From contig NZ_CP107960.1 of assembly GCF_036077095.1 (NCBI RefSeq), forward strand, positions 6,076,001 through 6,140,000: a DNA stretch of 64,000 nucleotides, given 5' to 3'. The notes under the pieces are model-generated. The model had not been told where the DNA came from, searched no databases, and saw only the letters and a program-made list of their open reading frames with translations. This document shows, piece by piece, positions 10,389-64,000 of this stretch. The DNA comes from Streptomyces sp. NBC_00376. Its GTDB lineage: Bacteria; Actinomycetota; Actinomycetes; Streptomycetales; Streptomycetaceae. The translations under genes were made by a program, and so were the position numbers. Within the stretch, counting starts at the first letter, position 1; each line of letters starts with the position of its first letter.

Positions 10389-10416
10389 CAGCGCCGACGG
10401 GCCGAGGCCCCGGAGG

Positions 10417-10463
10417 GCCGAAGGGGTGCCGGGACGAACACATCGTCCCGGCACCCCTTCGGC
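10417..10463. terminator. Bidirectional terminator, 21-bp perfect stem
   Basis: Arms 10417-10437 and 10443-10463 pair perfectly across a 5-base loop (ACACA). It lies 28 bases after the stop of the GT87-PAP2 gene and 57 bases beyond the stop of the leftward AEC gene, so it can serve both. Confidence 0.85.
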
Positions 10464-10520
10464 GTGGATCGCCGCCTGACCAGCATCCGCCCGCCGGCCC
10501 GAGTCCGCCACTCGAACGGC

Positions 10521-11522
10521 TCAGGGGGCGGTCGTTCCCAGGGCCCAGGTGGCGAGGGAGAGCGTGCCCATGGAGACCACCGTCGAGGCCACCACGGCAT
10601 TGCGGGCCGGCCGGGTGTCCAGACCGTACTGCTGGGCGTAGATGAAGGCGTTCTGAGCGGTCGGCAGCGCCGAGCAGAGCACCACGGCGAGCAGTTGGTG
10701 TTCCGGCAGATGCAGCAGCGGGCCGCCGACGGCCAGGGCCGTCAGGGGCTGGACCAGCGTCTTGAGCGCCACCGCCACAGCGACCTCGGCACGCGCCGCG
10801 CGCTCCGGCCGCGCCGTGTTCTGTGCGACTTCCGCCGAACCGGGGGCGGCCGGGCGGGCGTTCAGGGACAGACCCAGTGTGATCAGGGCCGTCGGCACGG
10901 CGGCGGCGCCGAGCAGATCGCAGGAGTGGGCGAGCGCGTGCGGCAGCCGCAGTCCGAGCGCGGACACGGCCACCCCGAGCAACGAGGCCATGATGATGGG
11001 GTTGCGGACCGGCATGGTCAGCATCCGCCGGAACACGACCGCCTTCCCGGAGCCCGGCTTTGTCCCCGCCCCCGTCCCCGAGTCGAGCAGCGCGAGGATC
11101 ACCGGGGAGACCAACAGGACCTGGAACAGGATGATCTGGGCGACGAACGACGCGTCACCGAGGACCTGGACCGCCACCGGGATGCCGAGATTGGCGGAGT
11201 TGACGTAGCCCGACGTCATGCTGCCGATCGCCCGGTCCGCCGTACCCCGTCCGAAGAGCCGCCCGGCCGCCAGGAACCCGAGACCGCAGACCAGCGCGGT
11301 GCCCGCCGCGAAGGCCACCATCGAGGCGTTGGCGAAGGTGTTCAGCCGGGCCCCGGAGACCATGGTGAACAGCGCGGCGGGCATGGCCACATGGAAGACG
11401 AACCGGCCGAGCACCGCCTCCGCCTGCGCACCGAGCAGTCCGCTGCGGCCGACCGCGTAACCGATCGCGGTGAGTATCCAGATGGGCGCGAAGGCGGAGA
11501 GCAGGGCGTGCATGCCCGCCAT
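10521..11522 (-). CDS. AEC family transporter (auxin efflux carrier-like)
   Basis: A 333-residue membrane protein with about ten hydrophobic segments. The start FAPIWILTAIGYAVGRSGLL, the mid-protein GYVNSANLGIPVA (the conserved Asn-x-x-x-x-G-I/L-P crossover) and PTAQNAFIYAQQYG near the end are typical of AEC permeases, which in bacteria export or import organic acids and similar anions. It lies 102 bases downstream of the CYP125-type gene on the same strand, so it may be co-transcribed and move a product of that pathway, which is inference. Starts at ATG 11522 and ATG 11513 are both acceptable; a GAGG lies just upstream. Confidence 0.82.
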   Translation of the reverse strand: MAGMHALLSAFAPIWILTAIGYAVGRSGLLGAQAEAVLGRFVFHVAMPAALFTMVSGARLNTFANASMVAFAAGTALVCGLGFLAAGRLFGRGTADRAIGSMTSGYVNSANLGIPVAVQVLGDASFVAQIILFQVLLVSPVILALLDSGTGAGTKPGSGKAVVFRRMLTMPVRNPIIMASLLGVAVSALGLRLPHALAHSCDLLGAAAVPTALITLGLSLNARPAAPGSAEVAQNTARPERAARAEVAVAVALKTLVQPLTALAVGGPLLHLPEHQLLAVVLCSALPTAQNAFIYAQQYGLDTRPARNAVVASTVVSMGTLSLATWALGTTAP

Positions 11523-12914: not shown

Positions 12915-12931
12915 CCTGACGACCCATCAGA
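12915..12931. promoter_or_regulatory. Degenerate copy of the TCTGAC-N5-GTCAGA operator
   Basis: CCTGAC-GACCC-ATCAGA matches 10 of the 12 fixed positions of the palindrome found exactly at 24951, 53130 and 63387. It lies 40 bases upstream of the CYP125 start codon and 15 bases from a KstR-like box, the same pairing seen at the ALDH and FadE34 promoters. Confidence 0.4.
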
Positions 12932-12946
12932 TGTTGACGGAAAGGT

Positions 12947-12960
12947 AGTAACGAGTTCTA
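12947..12960. promoter_or_regulatory. KstR-like operator, CYP125 side
   Basis: The bottom strand reads TAGAACTCGTTACT, matching 7 of the 8 fixed bases of the mycobacterial KstR consensus TNNAACNNGTTNNA (only the last A fails). It lies about 72 bases before the CYP125 start, in the shared promoter region with the thiolase gene. Confidence 0.6.
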
Positions 12961-13082: not shown

Positions 13083-14325
<1,243 letters not shown>

Positions 14326-23741: not shown

Positions 23742-24782
23742 TCACACCGCGATGTACGCCACCGGATCGGCCCCCGGCACCGCCTCCGCGCGCCCGAGCT
23801 TCACCAGCCGCCGCAGATGCGCCTCCGCCTCCGAGACGGCGATGTTCCGGGAGCCGTGCGGGATCTGCTCCCAGGGCCGGTTCCACTCCATCCGCTCGGC
23901 CAGCTCCCACGGTGTCAGCGGCTCCGCCAGCAGCCCGAGCAGCCCGGTCAGCCGCTCCTCGTGATGCCCGAGGAGCTCCCGTACCCGCCCCGCCGCATCG
24001 GTGAAGGCGTATTGGTGGGCGGGCAGCACCTCGGCGGCCCCGAGCCGGCCGATCCGCTCCAGCGAGTCGAGGTAGTCGCCGAGGGGGTCGGTGGCCGTGG
24101 CATCGTCCGGGTCCTCGTACAGCCCGATGTGCGGACTGATCCCCGGCAGCAGGTGATCCCCCGAGAAGAGCCGCCCCCGGCCCGGCAGATTGCCCGGGTG
24201 CTCCTCCTCCAGGTGCAGGCACACATGCCCCGGCGTGTGCCCCGGCGTCCAGATCGCCCGCAGCCTGCGCCCCGCCAGATCGAGCAGCTCACCGGGGACG
24301 ATCTCGCGGTCCGGGAGCGCGGCCCGCAACCCCGGCAGCGTCCGCATCCGGCCCCCGTCGGCCGCGGCGGCCCGCAACGGCGCGAGATGCTCCTCGGGCG
24401 CTCCGACCGCGGTGAGCTTGGCCGCGAGATAAGTCAGCCACCTGCCGGGTTCGGACTCCCGGGTACGGCGCACGATCGCGGTGTCCGCCGCATGCATGGC
24501 GATCCAGGCCCCGGAGGCCTCGCGCACCTGCCCGGAGAGCCCGTGGTGGTCGGGGTGGTGGTGGGTGATGACCACCCCGTGGATGTCGGCCATCTCTGTG
24601 CCGACGGCGGCGAGCCCGGCACAGAGCGTGTCCCAGGCCTCGGGATCGTCCCATCCGGTGTCGATCAGGACCGGTCCCCGATCGGTGTCCAGGACGTGCA
24701 CGAGGGTGTGGCCCAGCGGATTGTCCGGGATGGGCACCTTGATGCTGTGCACGCCCCCGCCGTGGTCGGTCACCTGCGTCAT
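23742..24782 (-). CDS. MBL-fold metallo-hydrolase
   Basis: A 346-residue metallo-beta-lactamase-fold enzyme. The metal site is complete: THHHPDHHG (HxHxDH; about residues 77-84), the later His in WTPGHTPGHVCLH, Asp in LFSGDHLL and a final His in VLPAHQYAF. The C-terminal 100 residues are helical and include a winged-helix-like part (LTPWELAERMEWNRPWE). Glyoxalase-II/lactonase/thioesterase-type hydrolysis is expected; in a catabolic setting a CoA thioester is plausible but unproven. The start at ATG 24782 is chosen over ATG 24794 from spacing. It is divergent from the aldehyde dehydrogenase gene across a promoter region with two KstR-like boxes. Confidence 0.82.
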   Translation of the reverse strand: MTQVTDHGGGVHSIKVPIPDNPLGHTLVHVLDTDRGPVLIDTGWDDPEAWDTLCAGLAAVGTEMADIHGVVITHHHPDHHGLSGQVREASGAWIAMHAADTAIVRRTRESEPGRWLTYLAAKLTAVGAPEEHLAPLRAAAADGGRMRTLPGLRAALPDREIVPGELLDLAGRRLRAIWTPGHTPGHVCLHLEEEHPGNLPGRGRLFSGDHLLPGISPHIGLYEDPDDATATDPLGDYLDSLERIGRLGAAEVLPAHQYAFTDAAGRVRELLGHHEERLTGLLGLLAEPLTPWELAERMEWNRPWEQIPHGSRNIAVSEAEAHLRRLVKLGRAEAVPGADPVAYIAV

Positions 24783-24860
24783 GGAGGTCCCCATCTCTCT
24801 CGGCGACGTGCTGCTGCGATCCGTCGCGCCCGCGTGTGGGTGCGTCGGGCCCACTGTAAC

Positions 24861-24874
24861 GAGAACTTGTTCCA
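24861..24874. promoter_or_regulatory. KstR-like operator, MBL side
   Basis: GAGAACTTGTTCCA matches 7 of the 8 fixed positions of TNNAACNNGTTNNA (the first T is G). It lies 79 bases before the leftward MBL start, in the shared MBL/aldehyde dehydrogenase promoter region. Confidence 0.6.
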
Positions 24875-24934: not shown

Positions 24935-24952
24935 TGGAACTGGTATCAGTTC
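24935..24952. promoter_or_regulatory. KstR-like operator, ALDH side
   Basis: TGGAACTGGTATCA (24935-24948) has one mismatch to TNNAACNNGTTNNA. It overlaps a 6-bp inverted repeat GAACTG-GTAT-CAGTTC (24937-24952). It sits about 110 bases upstream of the aldehyde dehydrogenase start and directly abuts the second palindrome at 24951. Confidence 0.55.
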
Positions 24953-24967
24953 TGACACAGAGTCAGA
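24951..24967. promoter_or_regulatory. Palindromic operator TCTGAC-ACAGA-GTCAGA
   Basis: An exact 6+6 palindrome with a 5-base spacer, overlapping the end of the KstR-like site. The same 12 fixed bases occur at 53130-53146 and 63387-63403, each in front of a gene that fits lipid or steroid oxidation. Probably the site of a TetR-type regulator; the regulator itself is not identified. Confidence 0.6.
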
Positions 24968-25062: not shown

Positions 25063-26523
25063 ATGACCGAGCTTGTCGAACACGGAAAACTGTTCATCGG
25101 CGGGGAGCTGGTCGATCCGCTGGGCCGGGACACCATCGAGGTCGTCTCGCCCCACACCGAGCAGGTCATCGGCCGGGTGCCGCATGCGTGTGAGGCGGAC
25201 GTGGACGCGGCCGTCGCCGCCGGGCGGCGGGCGTTCGACGAGGGGCCCTGGCCCCGGATGAGCCTGGACGAGCGGATCGCGGTGGTGACCAGGATCAAGG
25301 ACGCGTTCGCCGTCCGCTACGAGGAGATCGCCCGGGTCATCAGCTCGGAGAACGGCACGCCGTACACGTCGAGCGTCATGGTGCAGGCCCTCGCCGCGAT
25401 GATGGTGTGGGACTCGGCGATCACCGTCGCCCGCGAATTCGCGTACGAGGAGCGGCGGACCGGGGCGCTCGGGCCGCTGCTGGTGCGCCGGGAGCCGGTC
25501 GGGGTGGTCGCGGCCGTGGTGCCGTGGAACGTTCCGCAGTTCACCGCCGCCGCCAAGCTCGCGCCCGCGCTGCTGGCCGGCTGCTCCGCCGTGCTCAAGG
25601 TCTCGCCCGAATCGCCGCTGGACGCCTACATCCTGGCCGAGATCGCCGCCGATGCCGGACTGCCGGAGGGCGTGCTCTCCATCCTCCCGGCCGACCGCGA
25701 GGTCAGCGAGTACCTGGTCGGGCACCCCGGCATCGACAAGGTGTCGTTCACCGGGTCGGTGGCCGCCGGGCGCCGGGTGATGGAGGTCGCCTCCCGCAAT
25801 CTCACCCGGGTCACCCTGGAGCTGGGCGGCAAGTCCGCCGCCGTGATCCTCCCCGACGCCGATCTGGACGCCGCCGTCGCGGGCATCGTCCCCTTCGCCT
25901 GGATGATCAACGGCCAGGCGTGCGTGGCCCAGACCCGCATTCTCGTACCGCGCTCCTGCTACGACGAGACGGCGGAGGCGTTCGCCGCCGCGGCGGGTGC
26001 GCTGAAGGTCGGCGACCCGCTCGACCCGGCCACCGAACTCGGCCCGCTGGTCGCGCGGCGCCAGCAGCAGCGCTCGCTGGACTACATCAGGATCGGGCAG
26101 GACGAAGGCGCCAAGATCCTTACCGGTGGCGGCCGTCCGGCGTCCCAGGAACGGGGCTGGTACGTCGAACCGACCCTCTTCGGAGACGTGGAAAACTCCA
26201 TGCGCATCGCCCGCGAGGAGATCTTCGGCCCCGTCATCTGCCTGCTGCCGTACGGCGACGAGGACGAGGCCGTACGGATCGCCAACGACTCCGACTACGG
26301 CCTCAGCGGCAGCGTCTGGACCGCCGACACCGAACGCGGCATCGACATCGCCCGCCGGGTCAGGACGGGCACGTACAGCGTGAACACCTTCAGCCTCGAC
26401 ATGCTCGGCCCGTTCGGCGGGTACAAGAACTCAGGCCTGGGGCGGGAGTTCGGGCCCGAGGGCTACGGCGAGTACTTCGAGCACAAGATGATCCACCTGC
26501 CGGCCGGATACGAGGGGGCATGA
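25063..26523 (+). CDS. Aldehyde dehydrogenase (NAD(P)-dependent)
   Basis: A 486-residue cytosolic ALDH, normal family length. Visible motifs: VPWNVPQFTAAAKLAPALLAGC (cofactor and Asn), SFTGSVAAGRRVME (Rossmann turn), TLELGGKSA with the general base Glu, and NGQACVAQTRILVPRS with catalytic Cys in GQAC; EEIFGPVICLL follows. It would oxidise an aldehyde to an acid. Next to a P450-type ferredoxin and under KstR-like boxes, a fitting substrate is a steroid side-chain aldehyde made by the CYP125-type P450, which is inference. Start: ATG 25063 with GGGAGG 9 bases upstream. The stop overlaps the ferredoxin start. Confidence 0.87.
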   Translation: MTELVEHGKLFIGGELVDPLGRDTIEVVSPHTEQVIGRVPHACEADVDAAVAAGRRAFDEGPWPRMSLDERIAVVTRIKDAFAVRYEEIARVISSENGTPYTSSVMVQALAAMMVWDSAITVAREFAYEERRTGALGPLLVRREPVGVVAAVVPWNVPQFTAAAKLAPALLAGCSAVLKVSPESPLDAYILAEIAADAGLPEGVLSILPADREVSEYLVGHPGIDKVSFTGSVAAGRRVMEVASRNLTRVTLELGGKSAAVILPDADLDAAVAGIVPFAWMINGQACVAQTRILVPRSCYDETAEAFAAAAGALKVGDPLDPATELGPLVARRQQQRSLDYIRIGQDEGAKILTGGGRPASQERGWYVEPTLFGDVENSMRIAREEIFGPVICLLPYGDEDEAVRIANDSDYGLSGSVWTADTERGIDIARRVRTGTYSVNTFSLDMLGPFGGYKNSGLGREFGPEGYGEYFEHKMIHLPAGYEGA

Positions 26524-27671: not shown

Positions 27672-28700
27672 ATGCCCGCAGCGGAACAGGCGGCGCCGGG
27701 ACCGGACCGGCCTTCTCTCCGCGCCGGACTGGTGCAACTGCGCGGCGTTGCCCAGGTGGCACTCGTCTCCAGCCCCTGGTCCGGGCTGCTGTTCACCCTC
27801 GCGCTGTTCACCGGCGGCTGGCGTATCGGGGTGTACGGCCTGCTCGGCGCCGCCTCGTCCGCCGGGGCGGCGGTCCTGCTGGGTGCCGACCGGCAGGGAG
27901 TGGGCAAAGGGCTTCAGGGCTACTGCGGTTGCCTTACCGGCATCGCCCTCGTCGTACGGCTCGGCGCCTCGTGGCAGACCGCGGTGCTGGCCGTGCTCGG
28001 TGCGGCCGTCTGCTCGGTGCCGGCCGCTGCCGCGGGGCGGCTCCTCGCTCCGCTCGGGCTGCCGGTCCTGACGGCCCCTTACTGTCTGGTCGCCGGAGCG
28101 TTGACGATCGCGCTGCCCGGCGCCCCGGTCACCGCGGGCGTGGCCGCCCGGGTTCCGGGGTTCACCGAGCTGACGGCCGCCGAGGCCTGGCACGCGTTCT
28201 GCAACAACATCGGCCAGATCTTCTTCCTGGACAACTGGTACGCGGGCCTGATCCTGCTCGCCGGGCTCCTCGTCGCCTCCCGGACCGCGGCCCTCGCAGC
28301 GGTCTGCGGCAGCGTTCTCGCGCTGCTCACCGCCTGCGCGGCCGGGCTGCCCGCGGACAGGATCACCGAGGGCCTGTACGGCTACAACGCGGTGCTCTGC
28401 GCGATCGCACTGGCCGCCACCTTCCTGACCCCCACCCCGTGGACCACCGGGTACGCCGCGCTCGCCGCCGTGGCCTCGGTCCCCTTCAGTGCTGCCTGGG
28501 AAGCCTTCGCCCAGCCGTCCGGCACAACCCCCTTCACCTGGCCGTTCACCGTGACGACCTGGCTCTTCCTGGCCGCCGCTCCGGCCCTGGACCGGCCCGG
28601 GTTCTCCTTCGGGAGACAACTTCGAGAAACAACTCAAGAAAGCAACTCCGAGAAACGCCTCCGAGAAACGCCTTCGAGGAAACTCCTTCGAGAAAGCTGA
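27672..28700 (+). CDS. Urea transporter (UT family)
   Basis: A 342-residue channel-like transporter of the UT family (PF03253). About ten hydrophobic segments are arranged as two related halves; LVLLLG-type GYCGCLTGIALVVRLG and GLYGYNAVLCAIALAATF are the paired GxNxxLx-type segments that line the pore. It admits urea for the urease encoded directly downstream. Start: ATG 27672 with AAGGAGATG upstream. The last 25 residues or so (RETTQESNSEKRLRETPSRKLLRES) come from a 13-bp tandem repeat and are not part of the family fold. The stop is 9 bases before ureA. Confidence 0.87.
   Translation: MPAAEQAAPGPDRPSLRAGLVQLRGVAQVALVSSPWSGLLFTLALFTGGWRIGVYGLLGAASSAGAAVLLGADRQGVGKGLQGYCGCLTGIALVVRLGASWQTAVLAVLGAAVCSVPAAAAGRLLAPLGLPVLTAPYCLVAGALTIALPGAPVTAGVAARVPGFTELTAAEAWHAFCNNIGQIFFLDNWYAGLILLAGLLVASRTAALAAVCGSVLALLTACAAGLPADRITEGLYGYNAVLCAIALAATFLTPTPWTTGYAALAAVASVPFSAAWEAFAQPSGTTPFTWPFTVTTWLFLAAAPALDRPGFSFGRQLRETTQESNSEKRLRETPSRKLLRES
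28608..28697 (+). repeat. 13-bp tandem repeat at the 3' end of the urea transporter gene
   Basis: Seven units resembling TTCGAGAAACAAC or TCCGAGAAACGCC start at 28608, 28621, 28634, 28647, 28660, 28673 (14 bases) and 28687. Because 13 is not a multiple of three, successive units are read in rotating frames. A gain or loss of one unit would change the tail and stop codon. The array is AT-richer than the gene. Confidence 0.75.
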
Positions 28701-28709
28701 CGTGACGCC

Positions 28710-29015
28710 ATGAACCTCGCACCGCGGGAAATCGACAAACTCCACGTCTACGTGGTCGCGGACCTGGCCCGCCGCCGCAGGGACCGGGGGACCAAGCTCA
28801 ACTACAGCGAAGCCGCCGCCCTGATCACCGAGGCCGTCCTGGAGGCCGCGCGCGACGGCCACACCGTCGCCGAATGCATGGAGCTGGGCCGCAGGGTCGT
28901 CTCGGGCGACGACGTGATGCCCGGCGTACGGGAGATGCTCACCGTCCTCCAGGTCGAGACGGCCTTCGTCGACGGGACGAAGCTGGTCACCTGCCACGAC
29001 CCGATCAGCGCCTGA
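28710..29015 (+). CDS. ureA: Urease subunit gamma
   Basis: A 101-residue cytoplasmic subunit, standard length. It begins [23 protein letters not shown] and contains [10 protein letters not shown] and [26 protein letters not shown], all conserved in UreA. Gamma, beta and alpha assemble as (abg)3 around the nickel site of alpha. Urease splits urea into ammonia and carbamate. It is the first structural gene of the operon, 9 bases after the transporter. Confidence 0.95.
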
Positions 29016-29033
29016 AAGACCGAGGAGACACAC

Positions 29034-29444
29034 ATGTCGGGCGGAGCCCAATACCTCTACGGGGACGAACCCGTGGAGATCAACGCCGACCGTGCCAGGA
29101 CCAGGCTCACCGTCGCCAACACCGGTGACCGGGCCGTCCAGGTCGGTTCCCACTACCACTTCTTCGAGATCAACCGCGCCCTGCGCTTCGACCGCGAGGC
29201 CGCCTACGGCATGCGCCTGGACATTCCCTCCGGGACCGCCGTGCGCTTCGAGCCCGGCGACACCCGCGAGGTGGAGCTGTGCGCCTTCGGCGGCACCGGC
29301 CGGCTCAACGGCTTCGCCGGACTCGTCAACGGCGGCCTGTCGGCCCCGGACACCCGGCGCGACGCGCTCCGCCGCGCCGCGGAACTCGGCTTCGTGCAGC
29401 CCGGGTCCGGAACCGAGAAGAACAACGCAGAGGAGCGGAACTGA
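29034..29444 (+). CDS. ureB: Urease subunit beta
   Basis: A 136-residue subunit. [42 protein letters not shown] and [15 protein letters not shown] are the UreB signatures. The C-terminal extension after the core (about 25 residues, ending EKNNAEERN) is somewhat longer than in Klebsiella. Start: ATG with GAGGAG upstream. The stop shares one base with the ureC start (TGATG), coupling translation. Confidence 0.95.
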
Positions 29445-31168
29445 TGGCGATCATCCCGCGCAAGCAGTACACGGACCTGTTCGGTCCCACCGTGGGCGAC
29501 CGGTTCCACCTGGCCGACACCAACCTGATCGTCGAGGTCGAGTACGACCACAACGCCGGTTCCTACGGGGAAGAGGCCGTCTACGGGGGCGGCAAGGCCA
29601 TCCGGGACGGCATGGCCCAGGACCCCTCCGCGCTGAACCGCGAGGGCGCCCTGGACCTCGTCATCACCAACGTCGTGGTCCTCGACCCGGTCCTCGGCGT
29701 GGTCAAGGGCGACATCGGGGTCCGCGGCGGCCTGATCGTCGGCGTCGGCAAGGCGGGGAACCCGCATCTGCAGAACGGTGTCGACCCCAAGCTCGTCATC
29801 GGCCCCGGCACCGAGGTGATCTCCGGCGAGCACCTCATCGCCACCGCCGGGGGCGTCGACACGCACATCCACTTCATCGCACCCCAGCAGGCCCAGGAGG
29901 GCCTGTCCAACGGCATCACCACCTTCTTCGGCGGCGGCACCGGACCCACCGACGGAACCAACGGCACCACCTGCACCCCCGGACCCTGGAACATCCACCG
30001 GATGCTGGAGGCCGTGGAGGACCTGCCGGTCAACGTGGGACTGCTCGGCAAGGGCAACGGCAGCCTGCCCGAGGCGCTGCGGGAGCAGGTCGAGGCGGGA
30101 GCGGCCGGGCTGAAGGTGCACGAGGACTGGGGCGCCACCCCCGCCGCGATCGACACCGCGCTGCGGGTCGCCGACGAGCACGACGTACAGATGGCCATCC
30201 ACACCGACACCCTCAACGAGGGCGGTTTCTACGAGGACACCCTCTCGGCGATCGACGGCCGGACCATCCACACCTTCCACACCGAGGGCGCGGGCGGCGG
30301 TCACGCCCCCGACATCATCCGGGTGTCGGGCGAGGCCAACGTACTGCCGGCCTCCACCAACCCGACCCTGCCCTACACGGTCAACGCGGTGGACGAGCTG
30401 CTGGACATGGTGATGGTCTGCCACCACCTGTCCCGTGACATCCCCGAGGACGTCTCGTTCGCCGACAGCCGGGTGCGGGCCGAGACGATCGCGGCCGAGA
30501 CCGTGCTGCACGACCTCGGCGTCATCAGCATCTTCTCCTCCGACTCCCAGGCCATGGGCCGGGTCGGCGAGTCCTTCCTGCGCGCCTTCCAGACGGCGCA
30601 CCACTGCAAGGAGATGCGCGGCCCGCTGGCCGAGGACAGCTCCCGCAACGACAACGCGCGGGTCCTGCGCTACCTGGCCAAGCTGACGATCAACCCCGCG
30701 ACGGCGGTCGGCGCCGCGGACGTGATCGGTTCCCTGGAGCCCGGCAAGCTCGCCGACATCGTGCTCTGGCCGATCCACTCCTTCGCCGCCAAGCCCAGGC
30801 TCATCATCAAGGGCGGCATGGTCAACTGGGCCCTGATGGGCGACCCGAACGCCTCGCTGCCGACGCCCCAACCGGTCTACTACCGGCCGATGTTCGGCAC
30901 CCACGGCCGGGCGAAGCAGCGCACCTCGGTGACGTTCATGTCGCAGGCGTCCATCGCCGCCGGGGTCCCCGGGGAGCTGGGGCTGCAACGGCGGATCGAG
31001 CCCGTGCAGCGCTGCCGGACCATCGGCAAGCAGCACATGGTGCGCAACGACGCGCTGCCGCGCATCGAGGTGGACCCGGAGACGTACAAGGTCACCGTGG
31101 ACGGCGAGCCCGCGACCATCGAGCCGGCCGAGCGGCTGCCGCTCAACCACCTCTTCTACATCGTCTGA
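29444..31168 (+). CDS. ureC: Urease subunit alpha, catalytic
   Basis: A 574-residue catalytic subunit. All nickel ligands and catalytic residues are visible, at +7 relative to Klebsiella numbering: His141 and His143 (DTHIHF), carbamylated Lys224 (GLKVHEDWG), His253 ([10 protein letters not shown]), His279 ([12 protein letters not shown]), the flap His327 (VCHHLS) and Asp367 (SSDSQAMGR). The enzyme hydrolyses urea to supply nitrogen and raise pH. Start: ATG 29444, overlapping the ureB stop by one base, with GAGGAGCGG upstream. Confidence 0.97.
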
Positions 31169-31225
31169 CGACCGCATCGCCCGACGACCGCATCGCCTCA
31201 CGACCGCCCGAACGGAAATCCCGGT

Positions 31226-31924
31226 GTGAACGACCCGATCCCGATCCCGGCCCTGCTGACCGGACTCCAGCTCACCGACTCGGCCTTCCCCAGCGGCTAC
31301 TACACCCTCTCCCACGGCCTGGAGGGCTTCCAGCAGGCCCGCGCGGTCACCCCGTCCGGCCTGCCGGCGCTCCTGCACGACCTGCTGCGCCACAGCGTGG
31401 GCCCGGCCGACGCCACCGCCCTCGCGCTCGCCCACCGTGCGGTCACCGCCGACGACTGGGAGGAGGTGGTGGCCGTGGAGCAGCGGCTGCACGCCACCAA
31501 ACTGGGCCGCGAGGCCCGGCAGGCCGCCGTCCGCACCGGACGGCAGCTGCTGGACCTGGCCGGCGAGGTGTACGGCACCGCGCCCGTCGAGCGGTATCGG
31601 GACCTCTACCGGGACGGTGCCGTACGCGGCTGCCAGCCGGTCGTCGCCGCCGTCGTCCACGCGGGCAACGGGCTGCCCGTCCGCCAGGCGGTCACCTGCG
31701 AACTGTTCGCCTTCGCGGCCAGTTTCGTGGGGGCCGCCCTGCGGCTGCGGCTGACCGACCACCGCCGGGCGCAGGTCGTCCTGCACGGCGCCGCCCCGGT
31801 GATCGAGAAGACCGTCGAAGCCGCTCTGGGGCGGGAACCGGCCGACATCGGGGGCTGCGTCCCGGTGGCGGACGTCATGGCCGGTCGCCACGAGCGCGCC
31901 GAAGCACGGCTGTTCGCCAGCTGA
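31226..31924 (+). CDS. ureF: Urease accessory protein UreF
   Basis: A 232-residue helical accessory protein: QLTDSAFPSGYYTLSHGLEGF and AVTCELFAFAASFVGAALRLRLTDH are typical. UreF bridges UreD and UreG in the maturation complex that delivers nickel and CO2 to apo-urease. GTG start at 31226; 57 bases separate it from ureC. The gene order C-F-G-D without ureE is the common actinomycete one. Confidence 0.93.
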   Translation: MNDPIPIPALLTGLQLTDSAFPSGYYTLSHGLEGFQQARAVTPSGLPALLHDLLRHSVGPADATALALAHRAVTADDWEEVVAVEQRLHATKLGREARQAAVRTGRQLLDLAGEVYGTAPVERYRDLYRDGAVRGCQPVVAAVVHAGNGLPVRQAVTCELFAFAASFVGAALRLRLTDHRRAQVVLHGAAPVIEKTVEAALGREPADIGGCVPVADVMAGRHERAEARLFAS

Positions 31925-31990
31925 GGGCTGTCCCGCAGGCACCCTTCGCATCCCTTCCACCCGCACCCACACCACCAGGACAGGAACACC

Positions 31991-32698
31991 ATGCACGACC
32001 CCATGCAGGCCAGGCACAACCACGACCACGGCCACGACGAGCTCATGCGGCGGCCGAAGGACGGCGTGCTGCGCGTCGGGATCGCCGGACCGGTCGGTTC
32101 CGGGAAGACGGCCCTGATCGAGGCGCTCGTCCCGGTGCTGATCGAGCGCGGCCGGACCCCCGCCGTCATCACCAACGACATCTTCACCACCGAGGACGCC
32201 GCGCATGTGCGCCGCACCCTGGCCGGGATCCTCGACGCCGACCGGATCGTCGGTGTGGAGACCGGGGCCTGTCCGCACACCGCCGTCCGTGACGACCCGA
32301 CGATGAACCAGGCCGCCGCCGACGAGCTCATGGAGCGCTTCCCCGAGGTGGACACCCTGCTCTTCGAGAGCGGCGGGGACAACCTGACCCTCACCTTCAG
32401 CCCGGCCCTGGTCGACCTGTTCCTGTTCGTGCTGGACACCGCCGAGGGCGACAAGATGCCGCGCAAGCGCGGACCGGGCATCACCGAGTGCGAGCTGCTC
32501 GTCATCAACAAGGTGGACATCGCCCCCTACGTACGGTGCGATCTCGGCGTCATGGAGTCGGACGCGCACCGCGTCCGGGACGGCCGGCCGGTGGTGCTGA
32601 CCAATTCGCTCACCGGGGACGGACTCGGCACCATCGCCGACTTCCTGCTGTCGCACGAAGCCGCCCACGAAGCCGCGCAGGAGACGGCCTCCGCGTGA
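31991..32698 (+). CDS. ureG: Urease accessory GTPase UreG
   Basis: A 235-residue SIMIBI-class GTPase. P-loop GPVGSGKT at residues 33-40; nickel-binding Cys-Pro-His in ETGACPHTAVRDD; ESGGDN and NKVDIAPYV for the G3/G4 motifs. The N-terminus is His/Asp-rich (MHDPMQARHNHDHGHDE), an extension that can store or hand over nickel and may compensate for the missing UreE. It powers nickel insertion into UreC. Its stop overlaps the ureD start (GTGA). Confidence 0.95.
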   Translation: MHDPMQARHNHDHGHDELMRRPKDGVLRVGIAGPVGSGKTALIEALVPVLIERGRTPAVITNDIFTTEDAAHVRRTLAGILDADRIVGVETGACPHTAVRDDPTMNQAAADELMERFPEVDTLLFESGGDNLTLTFSPALVDLFLFVLDTAEGDKMPRKRGPGITECELLVINKVDIAPYVRCDLGVMESDAHRVRDGRPVVLTNSLTGDGLGTIADFLLSHEAAHEAAQETASA

Positions 32699-33636
32699 CC
32701 GAGGCGCCCGCGCGGCTGGATCCCGCGCACTACGAACCCCGGCGGATACCGGCCCCGATGCTCGGACTCGCCGGCACCCCGGACACCCTGGCCGCCGGGC
32801 GCCCCGGCAAGGTCGGCCTGCTCGAACTGGGCTACGCGCGGGTGGGCGGGCGGACCGAACTCGTCGACCGGTACCAGAAGTCACCGCTCCAGATCATGCG
32901 CCCGCTGTACATCGACCCGTTGCGGCCCGACCTTCCGGTGACCTATCTGATGTCGACCGGCGGCGGCATCATCCAGGCCGACCGCAACCGGATCGACATC
33001 GACTGCGGCCCCGGCACCTCGGTCCACCTGACCACCCAGGCCGCGACCAAGGTGCACCGGATGGAGTTCGACCACGCGACCCAGATCGTCAACCTGACTG
33101 CGGGGGAGGGGAGTTACGTCGAGTATCTGCCGGACGCCCTCATCCCCTACCGGGACGCCCGCTTCTACCAGCACACCCGGGTGACCGTCGACCCGACCGC
33201 CACCGTGCTGCTGGGCGAGACGATCGCGGCGGGGCGGCTCGCCCGGGGCGAACGGCACGCCTACCGCATGCTCTTCAGCGATCTGGAGATCCGCCGCCCC
33301 GACGGGACGCTCCTGGCCGTGGACACCGTCCGCCTCGATCCGCAGGGGCCGGGCGGGGTCACCGGGCACGCCGTCTTCGGCGACCACGACCTGATGGCCT
33401 CGCTGTACGCGGTCACCCCGCTCGCCTCCGCCGCGAGCGTCGCCGACGCCCTCCACGAGGCGCTCGCACCGGCCGGCCCGGTCTTCGGCGTGAGCACCCT
33501 GCCCGACGACTGCGGGGCGTGGGTCCGGATCGTCGGCAGCGACCCGCCCGCCCTCACCCGTGCGATGCGCGCCGCGTGGGACGCCCTGCGGCGGCTGCTC
33601 ATCGGCGTCCCGGCCCCGGACCTGCGCAAGACCTGA
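32695..33636 (+). CDS. ureD: Urease accessory protein UreD
   Basis: A 313-residue accessory protein. STGGGIIQADRNRIDIDCGPGTSVHLTTQAATKVHRME is the UreD/UreH core, followed by EYLPDALIPYRDARFYQ. UreD is the platform that binds apo-urease and channels nickel from UreG via UreF. GTG 32695 overlaps the ureG stop by four bases. It is the last gene of the operon. The 36 bases to the convergent PHB depolymerase stop contain an imperfect GC-rich hairpin (about 33638-33664) that may terminate both. Confidence 0.92.
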   Translation: MTEAPARLDPAHYEPRRIPAPMLGLAGTPDTLAAGRPGKVGLLELGYARVGGRTELVDRYQKSPLQIMRPLYIDPLRPDLPVTYLMSTGGGIIQADRNRIDIDCGPGTSVHLTTQAATKVHRMEFDHATQIVNLTAGEGSYVEYLPDALIPYRDARFYQHTRVTVDPTATVLLGETIAAGRLARGERHAYRMLFSDLEIRRPDGTLLAVDTVRLDPQGPGGVTGHAVFGDHDLMASLYAVTPLASAASVADALHEALAPAGPVFGVSTLPDDCGAWVRIVGSDPPALTRAMRAAWDALRRLLIGVPAPDLRKT

Positions 33637-44763: not shown

Positions 44764-45375
44764 CTAGTGGGCTTCCGTGGGCCTCGTCACGTCGATCAGC
44801 CGGCAGACCATCTCGATGTCGATCTTCACCTGGGCGATCGACGCCCGCCCCGAGAGCCAGGTGATCAGCGCCGAGTGCCAGGTGTGCTCGATGACGCGGA
44901 CCGCGGACAGCTGCTCCGGCGTCGGATGCTCCAGGCCCATCGCGTCCAGGATGATCGCCGTGGTGATCCGCGAGACGGTGTCCACCTCCGGGCTGACGCT
45001 GCGGTCCGCGAAGGTCAGCGCCCGCACCATCGCGTCCGCCAGATGCGGCTCGCGCTGGAGCGCGCGGAAGGCCCGCATCAGGGTGTCGGCGACCCGCTGC
45101 GCCGGGTCCGTGCCGGCCGGGGGACGTTTGTGCAGCGTCGTGTGCATGTGCTGGAGCTGGTCCTGCATGGTGGCGACCAGCAGATGGATCTTGGACGGGA
45201 AGTAGCGGTACAGCGTGCCCAGGGCGACCCCGGCCTCCTCCGCGACCTCGCGCATCTGCACCGCCTCGAAACCGCCCCGGCCGGCGAGCTGGGCGCTGGC
45301 GTGCAGGATGCGGCGGCGGCGGGCCTCCTGGCGTTCGGTCAGGGGCGGCGATGCCGACTTGGCCTCAGCTGTCAT
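44764..45375 (-). CDS. kstR: KstR-type TetR family repressor of sterol catabolism
   Basis: A 203-residue TetR-family protein. The DNA-binding part reads RRRRILHASAQLAGRGGFEAVQMREVAEEAGVALGTLYRYFPSKIHLLVATM; EAVQMR-x-VA and AxGTLYRYFPSK-x-HLLV match mycobacterial KstR almost residue for residue, much closer than generic TetR proteins. The C-terminal ligand-binding part also resembles KstR (ADAMVRALTFADRSVSPEVD). In Mycobacterium KstR is released by 3-oxo-4-cholestenoyl-CoA. A perfect KstR box lies in its own promoter region at 45538, consistent with autoregulation. The ATG at 45375 was preferred over an upstream in-frame start because it gives the family length. Its targets in the window are listed at the operator entries. 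Confidence 0.88.
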   Translation of the reverse strand: MTAEAKSASPPLTERQEARRRRILHASAQLAGRGGFEAVQMREVAEEAGVALGTLYRYFPSKIHLLVATMQDQLQHMHTTLHKRPPAGTDPAQRVADTLMRAFRALQREPHLADAMVRALTFADRSVSPEVDTVSRITTAIILDAMGLEHPTPEQLSAVRVIEHTWHSALITWLSGRASIAQVKIDIEMVCRLIDVTRPTEAH

Positions 45376-45537: not shown

Positions 45538-45551
45538 TGAAACTTGTTCTA
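45538..45551. promoter_or_regulatory. Perfect KstR operator between kstR and the glycosyltransferase operon
   Basis: TGAAACTTGTTCTA fits all eight fixed bases of TNNAACNNGTTNNA. It lies 55 bases before the rightward glycosyltransferase start and 162 bases before the kstR start, so it could control both. Confidence 0.75.
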
Positions 45552-51542: not shown

Positions 51543-52109
51543 ATGACGGCCACAAGCGTGCGAGGCATCGACCACATCGGGGTGACGGTCCCCGACCTGG
51601 AGACCGCAACCCTCTTCCTCACCAGGGCCTTCGGCGCCGAGGTGCTCTACGACACCCTGCGCCGCCAGGACGGCCCGAACGGCGGCCCGGACGTCGAGCG
51701 TCGGCTCGGCGTACCGGCGGGCACCCAGCAACTGGCGGTCAGGATGCTGGCCCTCCCCGGCGGCGGTCCGGGCATCGAGCTCTGCGAGTTCGAGGGCCCC
51801 CGTCGCGAACCCCCGGCGCGGCCCTGCGACTTCGGCTGGCAGCACGTGGCGCTGTACGCCGACGACCTGGACGCGGCCGTCCGGGACTGCGTGGCCGCGG
51901 GCGCCTCGCTGCTCGCCGGACCGCAGCCGCTGCCGGGCCCCGAGGCGGGGGAGCACAACCGGTTCGCGTATCTGCGCACCCCGTGGGGCAGCACTCTGCA
52001 ACTCCTGACCTACCCCGACCCCCAGCCCTGGGAGCGCACCGCGACACGACGGAGCGGACGCCCGGCCGCCACCTGGCCGACCGATCCGGCCCGCCCAGGC
52101 CCTAGTTGA
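51543..52109 (+). CDS. VOC family (glyoxalase/epimerase-like) protein
   Basis: A 188-residue vicinal-oxygen-chelate protein with two beta-alpha-beta modules: IDHIGVTVPDLETATLFLTRAFGAE (first His ligand) and WQHVALYADDLDAAVRDCVAAGASLLAG (second His), plus a Glu in GIELCEFEG and a late strand FAYLRTPWGSTLQLLTYPD. Methylmalonyl-CoA epimerases and glyoxalases share this layout; the reaction is not predictable. ATG 51543, with AGGAG upstream, is 4 bases after the PHP gene. Its last 8 bases overlap the convergent F420 oxidoreductase gene. Confidence 0.78.
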   Translation: MTATSVRGIDHIGVTVPDLETATLFLTRAFGAEVLYDTLRRQDGPNGGPDVERRLGVPAGTQQLAVRMLALPGGGPGIELCEFEGPRREPPARPCDFGWQHVALYADDLDAAVRDCVAAGASLLAGPQPLPGPEAGEHNRFAYLRTPWGSTLQLLTYPDPQPWERTATRRSGRPAATWPTDPARPGPS

Positions 52110-53109
52110 GCTCCGCGAGCACCCGCAGTGTGTGCGGGTCCGGTGCCGTCACCAGGAGATCGGTGACCGGTCCCTTGCGCCACAACTCCAGCCGCTCCGC
52201 GATCCGTTCACGTGGCCCGACGAGCGAGATCTCGTCCGCGAAGGCGTCCGGTACCGCCAGTACCGCCTCCTGCTTGCGCCCTTCGAGGAACAGTTGCTGG
52301 ATCCGCCGCGCCTCCTCCTCGAACCCCATCCGCGCCATCAGATCGGCATGGAAGTTACGGGCCGCGTGGCCCATCCCCCCGATGTAGAAGCCGAGCATCG
52401 CCTTCACCGGCAGCAGCCCCTCGGCGACATCGTCACAGACCCGGGCCCGCGCCATCGGCGCGATCATGAACCCCTCGGGCAGGTCCGTGAGCGAGGCCTC
52501 GTACACATCGGTGCGCATCGGCGACCAGTACAGCGGCAGCCAGCCGTCGGCGATCCTTGTCGTCTGCGCGATGTTCCTCGGCCCCTCCGCCCCGAGCAGC
52601 ACGGGCAGCCCCGGCCGCAGCGGATGGGTGATCGGCTTCAGCGGCTTGCCCAGACCGGTGGCGTCCGGACCGTTGTACGGGTGGGAGTGGAACCGGCCGT
52701 CCAGCTCGACGGGGGCCTCGCGGGCCAGGACCTGGCGGATGACGTCGACGTACTCCCGGGTCGCGGTCAGCGGGCTCTTCGGGAACGGCCGCCCGTACCA
52801 GCCCTCCACCACCTGCGGCCCGGACAGCCCGAGGCCGAGTATCATCCGGCCGCCGGAGAGATGGTCGAGGGTGAGGGCGTGCATGGCGGTCGCGGTCGGG
52901 GTGCGCGCCGCCATCTGCGCGATGCCGGTGCCCAGCCGGATCCGGGAGGTGTGGGCGGCGATCCAGGTCAGCGGGGTGAAGGCGTCCGAGCCCCAGGCCT
53001 CCGCCGTCCACACCGACGCGTACCCCAGCGCCTCGGCCTCCCCGGCCAGCTCCAGATGGGCGGGGTTCGGGCCGCGGCCCCAGTATCCGAGCGCCAGTCC
53101 GAGCCGCAT
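52102..53109 (-). CDS. LLM-class F420-dependent oxidoreductase (Rv3520c-like)
   Basis: A 335-residue TIM-barrel flavin/F420 enzyme. LGYWGRGPNPAHLELAGEAEALGYASVWTAEAWGSDAFTPLTWIAAHTSRIRLGTGI and LTLDHLSGGRMILGLGLSGPQVVEGWYGRPFPKSPL match the luciferase-like monooxygenase fold. The GYWGRGP start is, as I recall, typical of the Rv3520c family, linked to cholesterol degradation in mycobacteria. It uses F420H2 to reduce, or F420 to oxidise, an unknown substrate. The exact palindrome TCTGAC-N5-GTCAGA at 53130 ties it to the ALDH and FadE34 promoters. Confidence 0.8.
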   Translation of the reverse strand: MRLGLALGYWGRGPNPAHLELAGEAEALGYASVWTAEAWGSDAFTPLTWIAAHTSRIRLGTGIAQMAARTPTATAMHALTLDHLSGGRMILGLGLSGPQVVEGWYGRPFPKSPLTATREYVDVIRQVLAREAPVELDGRFHSHPYNGPDATGLGKPLKPITHPLRPGLPVLLGAEGPRNIAQTTRIADGWLPLYWSPMRTDVYEASLTDLPEGFMIAPMARARVCDDVAEGLLPVKAMLGFYIGGMGHAARNFHADLMARMGFEEEARRIQQLFLEGRKQEAVLAVPDAFADEISLVGPRERIAERLELWRKGPVTDLLVTAPDPHTLRVLAELN

Positions 53110-53129: not shown

Positions 53130-53146
53130 TCTGACGATGCGTCAGA
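53130..53146. promoter_or_regulatory. Palindromic operator TCTGAC-GATGC-GTCAGA
   Basis: An exact copy of the 6+5+6 palindrome, located 20 bases upstream of the F420 oxidoreductase start. The arms extend by one more base pair (TCTGACG and CGTCAGA). No KstR-like box accompanies it here. Confidence 0.6.
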
Positions 53147-63386: not shown

Positions 63387-63403
63387 TCTGACCTTCCGTC
63401 AGA
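63387..63403. promoter_or_regulatory. Palindromic operator TCTGAC-CTTCC-GTCAGA
   Basis: An exact 6+5+6 copy of the palindrome, one base before the KstR box at 63405. It lies about 57 bases upstream of the FadE34-type start and about 187 bases upstream of the leftward exporter start. Confidence 0.6.
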
Positions 63404-63404
63404 A

Positions 63405-63418
63405 TGGAACGTGTTCTA
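63405..63418. promoter_or_regulatory. Perfect KstR operator in front of the FadE34-type gene
   Basis: TGGAACGTGTTCTA fits all eight fixed bases of TNNAACNNGTTNNA. It is 42 bases from the acyl-CoA dehydrogenase start codon, a position suited to repression. Confidence 0.75.
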
Positions 63419-63459: not shown

Positions 63460-64000
63460 ATGGGCATCGGAATCACCGAAGAACACAGGGAGTTGGCGCA
63501 GTCCGTACGGGGCTGGCTGGCGCGCGCCGTACCTCCGAAGGAGATCCGCGCACTCCTCGACGCGGACCCGCCCGGTACCTCCGGCGTGCGCCCCGGGTAC
63601 TGGGACGGGCTCGCCGGACAGGGCCTGCTCGCCATCCATCTGCCCGAGGAGCACGGGGGCGGGGGCGGCCGGCTCCTCGATCTGGCCGTGGTCCTCGAAG
63701 AGGCCGGCCGGGCCGCGCTCCCCGGCCCGTACCTGTCGAGCGCCCTGGCCTCCGCCGTACTGCACACGGCGGGCCCGCCCGGCCTCGTGCGCGACCTCGC
63801 GTCCGGTACGCGCATCGGCGCCGTCGCCCTCGGACCCGGCACCCTCACCGCCGTCGAGCGCGAGGACGGCCATCTGCTCGACGGCACGGCGCCGCCCATC
63901 CTCTCCGGAGCCGAGGCCGACCTGCTGCTCCTGCCCGCCGAATCGGCCACCGGCACCCTCTGGTTCGCCGTCGACTCCGCCACCGCCGGGCTGACCGCGC
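63460..64000 (+). CDS. FadE34-type acyl-CoA dehydrogenase, 3' end beyond the window
   Basis: The first 180 residues are seen; the gene runs off the right edge. MGIGITEEHRELAQSVRGWLARA and LAGQGLLAIHLPEEHGGGGGRLLDLAVVLEEAGRAALPGPYLSSALASAVLHTAG match the N-terminal domain of mycobacterial FadE34 (ChsE3), an acyl-CoA dehydrogenase acting on the 3-carbon or 5-carbon sterol side-chain CoA. FadE34 is a double-length fused protein of about 700 residues; whether that holds here cannot be seen. It sits under a perfect KstR box and the second palindrome. ATG 63460 has GAGGAT about 6 bases upstream. Confidence 0.82.
   Translation, partial: MGIGITEEHRELAQSVRGWLARAVPPKEIRALLDADPPGTSGVRPGYWDGLAGQGLLAIHLPEEHGGGGGRLLDLAVVLEEAGRAALPGPYLSSALASAVLHTAGPPGLVRDLASGTRIGAVALGPGTLTAVEREDGHLLDGTAPPILSGAEADLLLLPAESATGTLWFAVDSATAGLTA

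Follow-up and report, generated by a model that had tools for sequence, protein, structure and literature searches.

A palindrome at catabolic promoters of Streptomyces sp. NBC_00376 as the candidate operator of a PF19352 TetR-family repressor

The palindrome and its genes in the window

A 64,000-nucleotide stretch of the Streptomyces sp. NBC_00376 genome (NZ_CP107960.1, positions 6,076,001 to 6,140,000; hereafter, the window, with positions counted from its first letter) carries the palindrome TCTGAC-N5-GTCAGA in front of several genes that fit steroid or lipid oxidation, and a preliminary description of the sequence took it for the site of a second regulator acting together with KstR. Here, we describe this palindrome and the TetR-family protein that is its candidate binding partner. 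Exact copies at 24951, 53130 and 63387 and a 10/12 match at 12915 are present as described; all four are intergenic, each with a called start no more than 250 bp downstream, in agreement with the promoter location originally assigned to them.

The first exact copy, TCTGACACAGAGTCAGA (24951..24967), a proposed operator like the other two, lies upstream of an aldehyde dehydrogenase (ALDH) gene (25063..26523, + strand; distance to start +104), the best NCBIfam match of which is TIGR04284, under the cut-off. The same palindrome region is shared by a divergent gene for a metallo-beta-lactamase (MBL)-fold hydrolase of the Strvi_7410 family (23742-24794; NF053820, over the cut-off), the start of which is 165 bp away. 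The second copy, TCTGACGATGCGTCAGA (53130..53146), is centred 29 bp upstream (-29) of the start of a luciferase-like monooxygenase (LLM)-class F420-dependent oxidoreductase gene (52102..53109, - strand; TIGR03559, Rv3520c subfamily, over the cut-off). The third, TCTGACCTTCCGTCAGA (63387..63403), precedes by +65 a FadE34-like acyl-CoA dehydrogenase gene (63460..63999, + strand), which is cut by the window end after its N-terminal part and of which a further 545 amino acids are called in the next contig stretch (L019:3-1640); its best NCBIfam match is IpdE2, far under the cut-off, and the name FadE34 is that of the preliminary description and rests on context. The degenerate copy, CCTGACGACCCATCAGA (12915..12931), weak when taken alone, is found between divergent genes for a CYP125-like cytochrome P450 (11625..12875, - strand; distance -48), named from context and not from a model, and a FadA5-like steroid 3-ketoacyl-CoA thiolase (13156..14325, + strand; distance +233; NF005889, over the cut-off).

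Motif enrichment was computed with the reversed pattern, which forms an equally strong hairpin, as the control; this control is not matched for codon use and relaxed counts were therefore not used. The three exact copies in the window compare with 0.02 expected, and none of 100 window shuffles reaches three, so that the chance occurrence is indeed, as had been estimated, well below one. With up to two mismatches, there are four matches versus 2.31 expected and, with up to three, 19 versus 21.8; taken on their own, none but the exact copies reach significance.

A PF19352 TetR gene linked to the palindrome

Across the genome of the strain (10.04 Mb in three contigs, with genes called by a simple codon-usage caller), the palindrome is present in seven exact copies and in 36 places with at most one mismatch, versus five for the reversed control. 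The preliminary description had considered many coding-region copies as the outcome that would speak against a regulatory site; all seven exact copies are intergenic and within approximately 105 bp of a start, several of them between divergent genes. Twenty-three of the 36 places lie between genes with a start at most 250 bp downstream, the one in L043 additionally reaching into the end of a questionable reading frame, and the 33 sites inspected, which include a few non-promoter ones, yield the extended consensus aTCTGACGnnnCGTCAGAt. The densest group, at 3.756-3.808 Mb of contig C1, comprises seven places with at most one mismatch and four intergenic ones with two, and the products of the genes behind its sites include two amidohydrolases, an acyl-CoA dehydrogenase, thiolase-type proteins, a flavin monooxygenase, a flavin reductase and a cyclase-family protein. 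One of the amidohydrolases was tested and belongs to PF04909; the other shares 73% identity with an amidohydrolase of Actinomadura, which the first matches as well. Behind other sites of the genome are genes for an MFE-2-type hydratase, LLM oxidoreductases, an acyl-CoA dehydrogenase, an enoyl-CoA hydratase, and isochorismatase-type and nitronate-monooxygenase-type proteins. As a separate matter, CTGACCAGCAGTCAG occurs four times on the chromosome end and a plasmid (C1:138141, C3:25098, C3:124427 and C3:212120); the one copy read (L024) coincides with the stop codon of a gene for a lipoprotein-like product and is probably part of a repeated gene, not an operator.

Inside the densest site group and 2.3 Mb from the window, at C1:3770753-3771406, resides the gene for the candidate regulator, a TetR protein with the PF19352 (TetR_C_38) domain and the sole TetR gene of this cluster; the preliminary expectation that the second regulator would not be visible in the window is thus borne out, the TetR encoded there being KstR-like. 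The protein scores 26.7 bits against the helix-turn-helix domain PF00440 (TetR_N; cut-off 24) and 246.9 bits against PF19352 (cut-off 23.9), covering positions 1-135 of 135, and has the all-helical TetR fold. Its sequence matches that of EthR among solved structures, and its structural neighbours include EthR, FasR, FadR and DesT, a likeness of fold that falls below a claim of orthology; the targets of these four regulators differ from the candidate regulon. Neither KstR nor KstR2 was found among the sequence matches to solved structures (for KstR2, at E up to 0.01), and KstR2 was absent also from the best 50 fold matches, where a distant kinship is nevertheless possible; no NCBIfam KstR model was matched (five weak NCBIfam matches). 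The genome has at least 124 TetR_N matches (150 of 349 candidates scored), 108 of them on the chromosome. Among the matches listed, the PF19352 TetR gene is the chromosomal one nearest to a listed site (2.6 kb, L033), and none of these TetR genes, itself included, lies within 2 kb of any of 55 sites.

The computed linkage between gene and palindrome extends well beyond this strain. In 80 named loci picked by the TetR protein alone, the flanks of the gene contain 131 sites in the 67 Streptomyces loci and 25 in the 13 others, with zero and zero for the reversed control, and among half-site spacings of 0-15 only that of 5 stands out, with 156 matches, every other spacing yielding no more than three. 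Furthermore, the gene itself carries a conserved version of the motif: in 67/67 named Streptomyces loci, and likewise in 31/31 Streptomyces-type loci (30 genomes, our own represented twice), the start codon is embedded in the degenerate palindrome CTGAC-NNN-ATGACAG, one base off the core, and the CT of CTGAC is common to a TAAGCT element that stands 6 bases ahead of the ATG (L033:4754-5410 in our strain). The corresponding region reads TAAACTGACGGCATGACAG in Yinghuangia and TAA[AG]CTGACGGTATGCCAG in 4/4 Actinomadura loci, and a copy with at most two mismatches is present at the gene's own promoter in 11 of the 14 loci outside the order that do not belong to family f15 (see below). Judged by this arrangement, the gene is probably leaderless and looks to be self-repressed.

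Outside our own genome, the neighbours of the gene are CoA-thioester and steroid-ring-type genes. The KstR2 regulon serves steroid C/D-ring degradation, with HIP-CoA as the effector and a CAAG-type operator. In a Frankiales metagenome-assembled genome (MAG; L154) and in Yinghuangia (L161), the TetR gene adjoins one for a short-chain dehydrogenase/reductase (SDR), followed by a divergent exact palindrome and an EchA20-type hydratase (NF005925, over the cut-off), and L154 continues with two CoA-transferase subunits (PF01144) and a FabK/nitronate-monooxygenase-like protein. These we take to be counterparts of the mycobacterial EchA20, IpdA, IpdB and IpdC, names that rest on gene order and family; the neighbourhood of the TetR there, with EchA20-, IpdA/IpdB- and IpdC-like genes and a palindrome in front, may thus resemble the KstR2 regulon. 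No IpdA/IpdB relative was found in the fetched site regions of our own genome and, therefore, the Streptomyces regulon probably differs from that of KstR2. In Pseudofrankia, the TetR gene is accompanied by SDR, alcohol dehydrogenase and ALDH genes and a divergent F420 oxidoreductase gene, with a two-mismatch palindrome between the last two. The ALDH of the window is 57-59% identical to the ALDH encoded beside the PF19352 TetR in Pseudofrankia (57%) and genome G301, and its LLM oxidoreductase is 58-59% identical to the respective LLM protein in Pseudofrankia (59%) and G301. In Actinomadura, palindromes precede both the gene for an acyl-CoA synthetase, which is 66% identical to a product of the Streptomyces cluster, and that for an amidohydrolase, for which the identity is 73%.

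To gauge co-occurrence, we computed TetR and site counts in 197 genomes of the order and 197 genomes of the class. The PF19352 TetR is found in 196/197 order genomes at an E-value of 1.2e-75 or better (G002 reaches only 1.3e-4), including all 181 sampled Streptomyces genomes, and conservation of the palindrome in related genomes, the lack of which was to count against it, is evident from at least one exact site, commonly 4-10, in 150/197. In another family of the same order (G003, G019), the TetR orthologue is part of a cluster of 36-50 kb that contains 4-6 exact sites. In the class sample, the TetR is detected (E up to 1e-30) in 35/197 genomes, 19 of them outside the order; there, two or more exact sites are present in 13/19 genomes with the TetR versus 1/162 without it (p = 1.6e-14), or in 8/14 versus 1/162 (p = 1.3e-9) if f15 is excluded. 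We consider it very probable that the palindrome is the operator of a single TetR-family repressor with the PF19352 domain, which is encoded outside the window and acts partly together with KstR.

Several observations weigh against this interpretation. Thirteen of the 36 places in our genome are not promoter sites (five in genes, three on stop codons, one in a tRNA-Arg gene and four elsewhere between genes), the TetR self-operator deviates from the consensus, and the loci L123, L124 and L131 lack a copy with two or fewer mismatches at the TetR's own promoter. Although the TetR is present in 196/197 order genomes, 47/197, G002 included, have no exact site, and six TetR genomes of the class sample (G217, G226, G250, G291, G301 and G320) have 0-1. 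Conversely, G336, a genome that is 68% complete, has seven sites and no TetR was found in it. The co-occurrence counts rest on few independent lineages, and one of these, f15, contributes false matches. Finally, within Streptomyces, the amidohydrolase of the cluster is encoded in 30/30 genomes chosen as site-rich versus 2/30 chosen as site-free, whereas the TetR stays. The sites thus follow the catabolic cluster and the TetR is, therefore, not sufficient for them; it probably does something else as well, if only controlling its own gene. The TetR could have a further role where the targets have been lost, or another factor, lost along with the cluster, could bind the palindrome. Such a factor would be a regulator encoded in or near the cluster, with the PF19352 TetR as a mere neighbour, and LysR-like, LuxR-type response regulator and MerR-like genes are indeed seen there by eye. 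We regard this as improbable given that none of these regulators is, by the same inspection, common to the clusters of the other family, Actinomadura, Frankiaceae, Yinghuangia and the Frankiales MAG, whereas the TetR is, and its own start region bears the motif in Streptomyces, Yinghuangia and Actinomadura. An inverted repeat of 17-19 bp is also a usual size for a TetR dimer.

Family f15 was dropped as support. Exact sites number 6-56 in its five genomes, the TetR of which is divergent (35-37% identical to the Frankiales TetR in three aligned sequences), and the inspected sites are mostly coding or stop-codon matches: of 15 loci (5/56 sites of G277, 5/6 of G247 and 5/9 of G208; G230 and G262 were left out), seven are in genes, six of these in the frame CTG-ACN-NNN-NGT-CAG, and six of the eight intergenic ones overlap stop codons. 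In these loci (L139-L153), TGA falls within an arm at the stop-codon overlaps, and two sites between convergent genes resemble compact terminators, with 56 copies in G277. Likewise dropped as evidence was the core-only pattern CTGAC-N5-GTCAG, which gives many matches in the absence of exact sites (92 in G017, 34 in G129); CTG-ACN-NNN-NGT-CAG is probably a favoured coding frame, which makes the reversed control unfair for this pattern. In G017 and G015 (family f3, genus g6), 92 and 61 core copies stand against controls of 4 and 0, with no exact 12-base palindrome; codon use is a guess at the cause. The f15 sites, together with the places within genes and on stop codons of our own genome (four of the latter if the doubtful L043 frame is counted), would fit a terminator, another hairpin or a by-product of codon use in lieu of an operator. 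This is extremely improbable for the palindrome as a whole: the seven exact copies of our genome precede starts, several between divergent genes, the reversed pattern is near zero despite its equally strong hairpin, other loop lengths are not enriched and the linkage with KstR-like boxes, considered below, recurs.

Pairing with KstR-like boxes

KstR, a member of the TetR family, represses cholesterol catabolism in mycobacteria and rhodococci. The window encodes a KstR-like TetR repressor (44764..45375, - strand), which scores 198.4 bits against the NCBIfam KstR model NF033703 and is, thus, KstR-like but not a full equivalog, the cut-off being 280 bits. Boxes with the core AACNNGTT occur as AGTAACGAGTTCTA (12947..12960), GAGAACTTGTTCCA (24861..24874), TGGAACGTGTTCTA (63405..63418) and TGAAACTTGTTCTA (45538..45551); the latter is intergenic and upstream of the KstR-like gene, which is probably autoregulated through it, to judge from the position of the box. 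The gaps to the palindromes are 1 bp at 63387, 15 bp at 12915 and 76 bp at 24951, and no box is found within 120 bp of the palindrome at 53130. Consequently, the preliminary description stands as regards the exact copies, their significance and their location, but not the distance to the KstR-like box, said to be within 15 bases at three sites and so at two only; the copy at 12915 is not significant alone, its support consisting only of its box and of CYP125-like promoters of another family in which an intact core is accompanied by a box.

The pairing itself is conserved at FadE34-like and CYP125-like promoters. A composite of the core palindrome and AACNNGTTC, separated by 1-30 bp, was found in 76/197 order genomes versus 0/197 for the reversed control. 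Of 30 such loci that were read, 12 lie at a FadE34-like gene or its divergent major facilitator superfamily (MFS) gene and nine at a CYP125-like P450 gene of the other family; the rest comprise one MFE-2 hydratase locus, five inside genes and three without an assigned gene. The composite of the window's FadE34-like promoter is conserved in other Streptomyces, and its exact arrangement, GTCAG-N5-AACGTGTTC, recurs in 44 genomes by hand count. In our own genome, KstR-like boxes stand within 120 bp of 5/33 inspected palindromes, with gaps of 1, 15, 27, 49 and 76 bp (0.68 expected, p about 7e-4), namely, at the promoters of the FadE34-like gene, the P450/thiolase pair, an EchA-thiolase operon, an MFE-2 hydratase operon and the ALDH gene. 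In Parafrankia, a KstR-like gene, a FadA5-like thiolase gene and the PF19352 TetR gene share one stretch of approximately 7 kb. KstR-like and PF19352 TetR genes no more than 7 kb apart are seen in G250 (L122:3842-4492 and 9422-10255) and in Parafrankia (L160:3970-4620 and 9818-10621).

This association could also mean that the KstR-like repressor itself, or an orthologue of KstR2, has the palindrome as an additional, divergent operator. The company of EchA20/IpdAB-like genes kept by the TetR in the Frankiales MAG and Yinghuangia would fit such a reading, genes of this kind being placed under the KstR2 regulon of Nocardioides simplex in PMC7807495. The genomic distribution makes this very unlikely. 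KstR matches at 1e-30 are found in 63 class genomes, 48 of them outside the order, and 13 are over the cut-off; these 13 genomes have 0-1 sites each, and one, G226, also has the TetR. Outside the order, KstR without the PF19352 TetR is found in 35 genomes; 0-1 sites are present in 34 of them and seven in G336, from which it follows that the motif tracks the PF19352 TetR and not KstR. Moreover, the KstR-like boxes have another core, and the TetR matches EthR, not KstR or KstR2, among solved structures and no NCBIfam KstR model. The proposal of a second regulator acting with KstR is thereby supported, the palindrome tracking another TetR and its pairing with the box recurring across the order.

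A urease-like gene group (transporter, subunits and accessory proteins, recognized by eye only) is embedded amid the steroid-type genes of the window at 27756-33636.

Proposed mechanism and relation to known regulators

For the PF19352 TetR as repressor, the following mechanism can be envisaged. Binding and repression are inferred: a TetR dimer would occupy the transcription-start region and block transcription, since 10/23 promoter sites of our genome are centred 24-36 bp upstream of the start codon. Release would be brought about by a small ligand, most probably a CoA thioester or a similar intermediate formed as the target enzymes degrade steroid-like or branched acyl compounds, and the TetR would also repress its own gene through the weaker operator that overlaps the start codon. 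The protein might instead bind the palindrome and activate its targets, given that some TetR proteins are activators and FasR, one of the structural neighbours, is named as such in NCBIfam. We find activation unlikely, because centres 24-36 bp from the starts and a self-operator placed over the start codon, joined to a TAAACT/TAAGCT element, are both positions expected of a repressor. At several side-chain-type genes (P450/thiolase, FadE34-like, MFE-2-type hydratase and EchA/thiolase), where the palindrome stands near a KstR-like box, the proximity of the two elements suggests an AND-type logic, whereby the paired promoters would open only once both repressors are relieved.

Several known systems resemble this one in part. 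The KstR regulon similarly involves a TetR-type repressor and a short palindrome before side-chain and ring-degradation genes, and the window contains both a KstR-like gene and its boxes, but the operator is AACNNGTT as opposed to CTGAC-N5-GTCAG, and the repressor belongs to another TetR subfamily. Among the published operators found, the nearest belongs to SAV151, a TetR repressor of Streptomyces avermitilis that controls a dehydrogenase/hydrolase operon and, according to a table in a review (PMC10933834), recognizes TCTGAC-N10-GTCAGA and ACTGAC-N10-GTCAGT. The half-sites are identical but stand 10 bases apart instead of 5, a comparison made by operator letters only. SAV151 was rejected as the regulator, as spacing 10 is not enriched, with no match in the window (up to two mismatches) and two in the 80 TetR loci versus 156 at spacing 5; it may still be a relative. 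For N. simplex, PMC7062782 describes SRTF1, which takes part in the response to steroids as a further TetR besides KstR and KstR2 and has a palindromic operator close to the gene that encodes it; that palindrome is 22 bp long, three binding sites are placed in the SRTF1 cluster, and the protein is associated with ketosteroid dehydrogenase genes. Extra steroid regulators are, thus, already a known kind, and the unusual features of the PF19352 TetR system are its wide distribution and the conserved double operator. As to whether the second regulator is undescribed, as had been surmised, motif-string and topic searches of the open literature (with strings blind to other spacings, and with bioRxiv and most subscription papers outside their scope) returned no description of TCTGAC-N5-GTCAGA or its regulator; apparently, no PF19352 TetR has been described with this site in the literature so covered.

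These findings would give a near-universal Streptomyces TetR its DNA site, its targets and a function that can be tested, and would link functionally unassigned catabolic genes, such as those for amidohydrolases, F420 oxidoreductases and lipid-transfer-type thiolases, into one candidate regulon. They also offer a two-repressor promoter ready for the testing of combinatorial control and point to a second control layer for steroid- or sterol-type degradation outside mycobacteria, which may be useful for strain work on steroids. Tentatively, and with rather less confidence than in the operator itself, we propose that the PF19352 TetR may act, in actinobacteria that lack mycolic acids, as one more global regulator of steroid-type and branched acyl-CoA catabolism, which might replace KstR2 in Frankiales and Yinghuangia and form with KstR a conserved two-lock promoter, the boxes of which are fixed a few bases apart.
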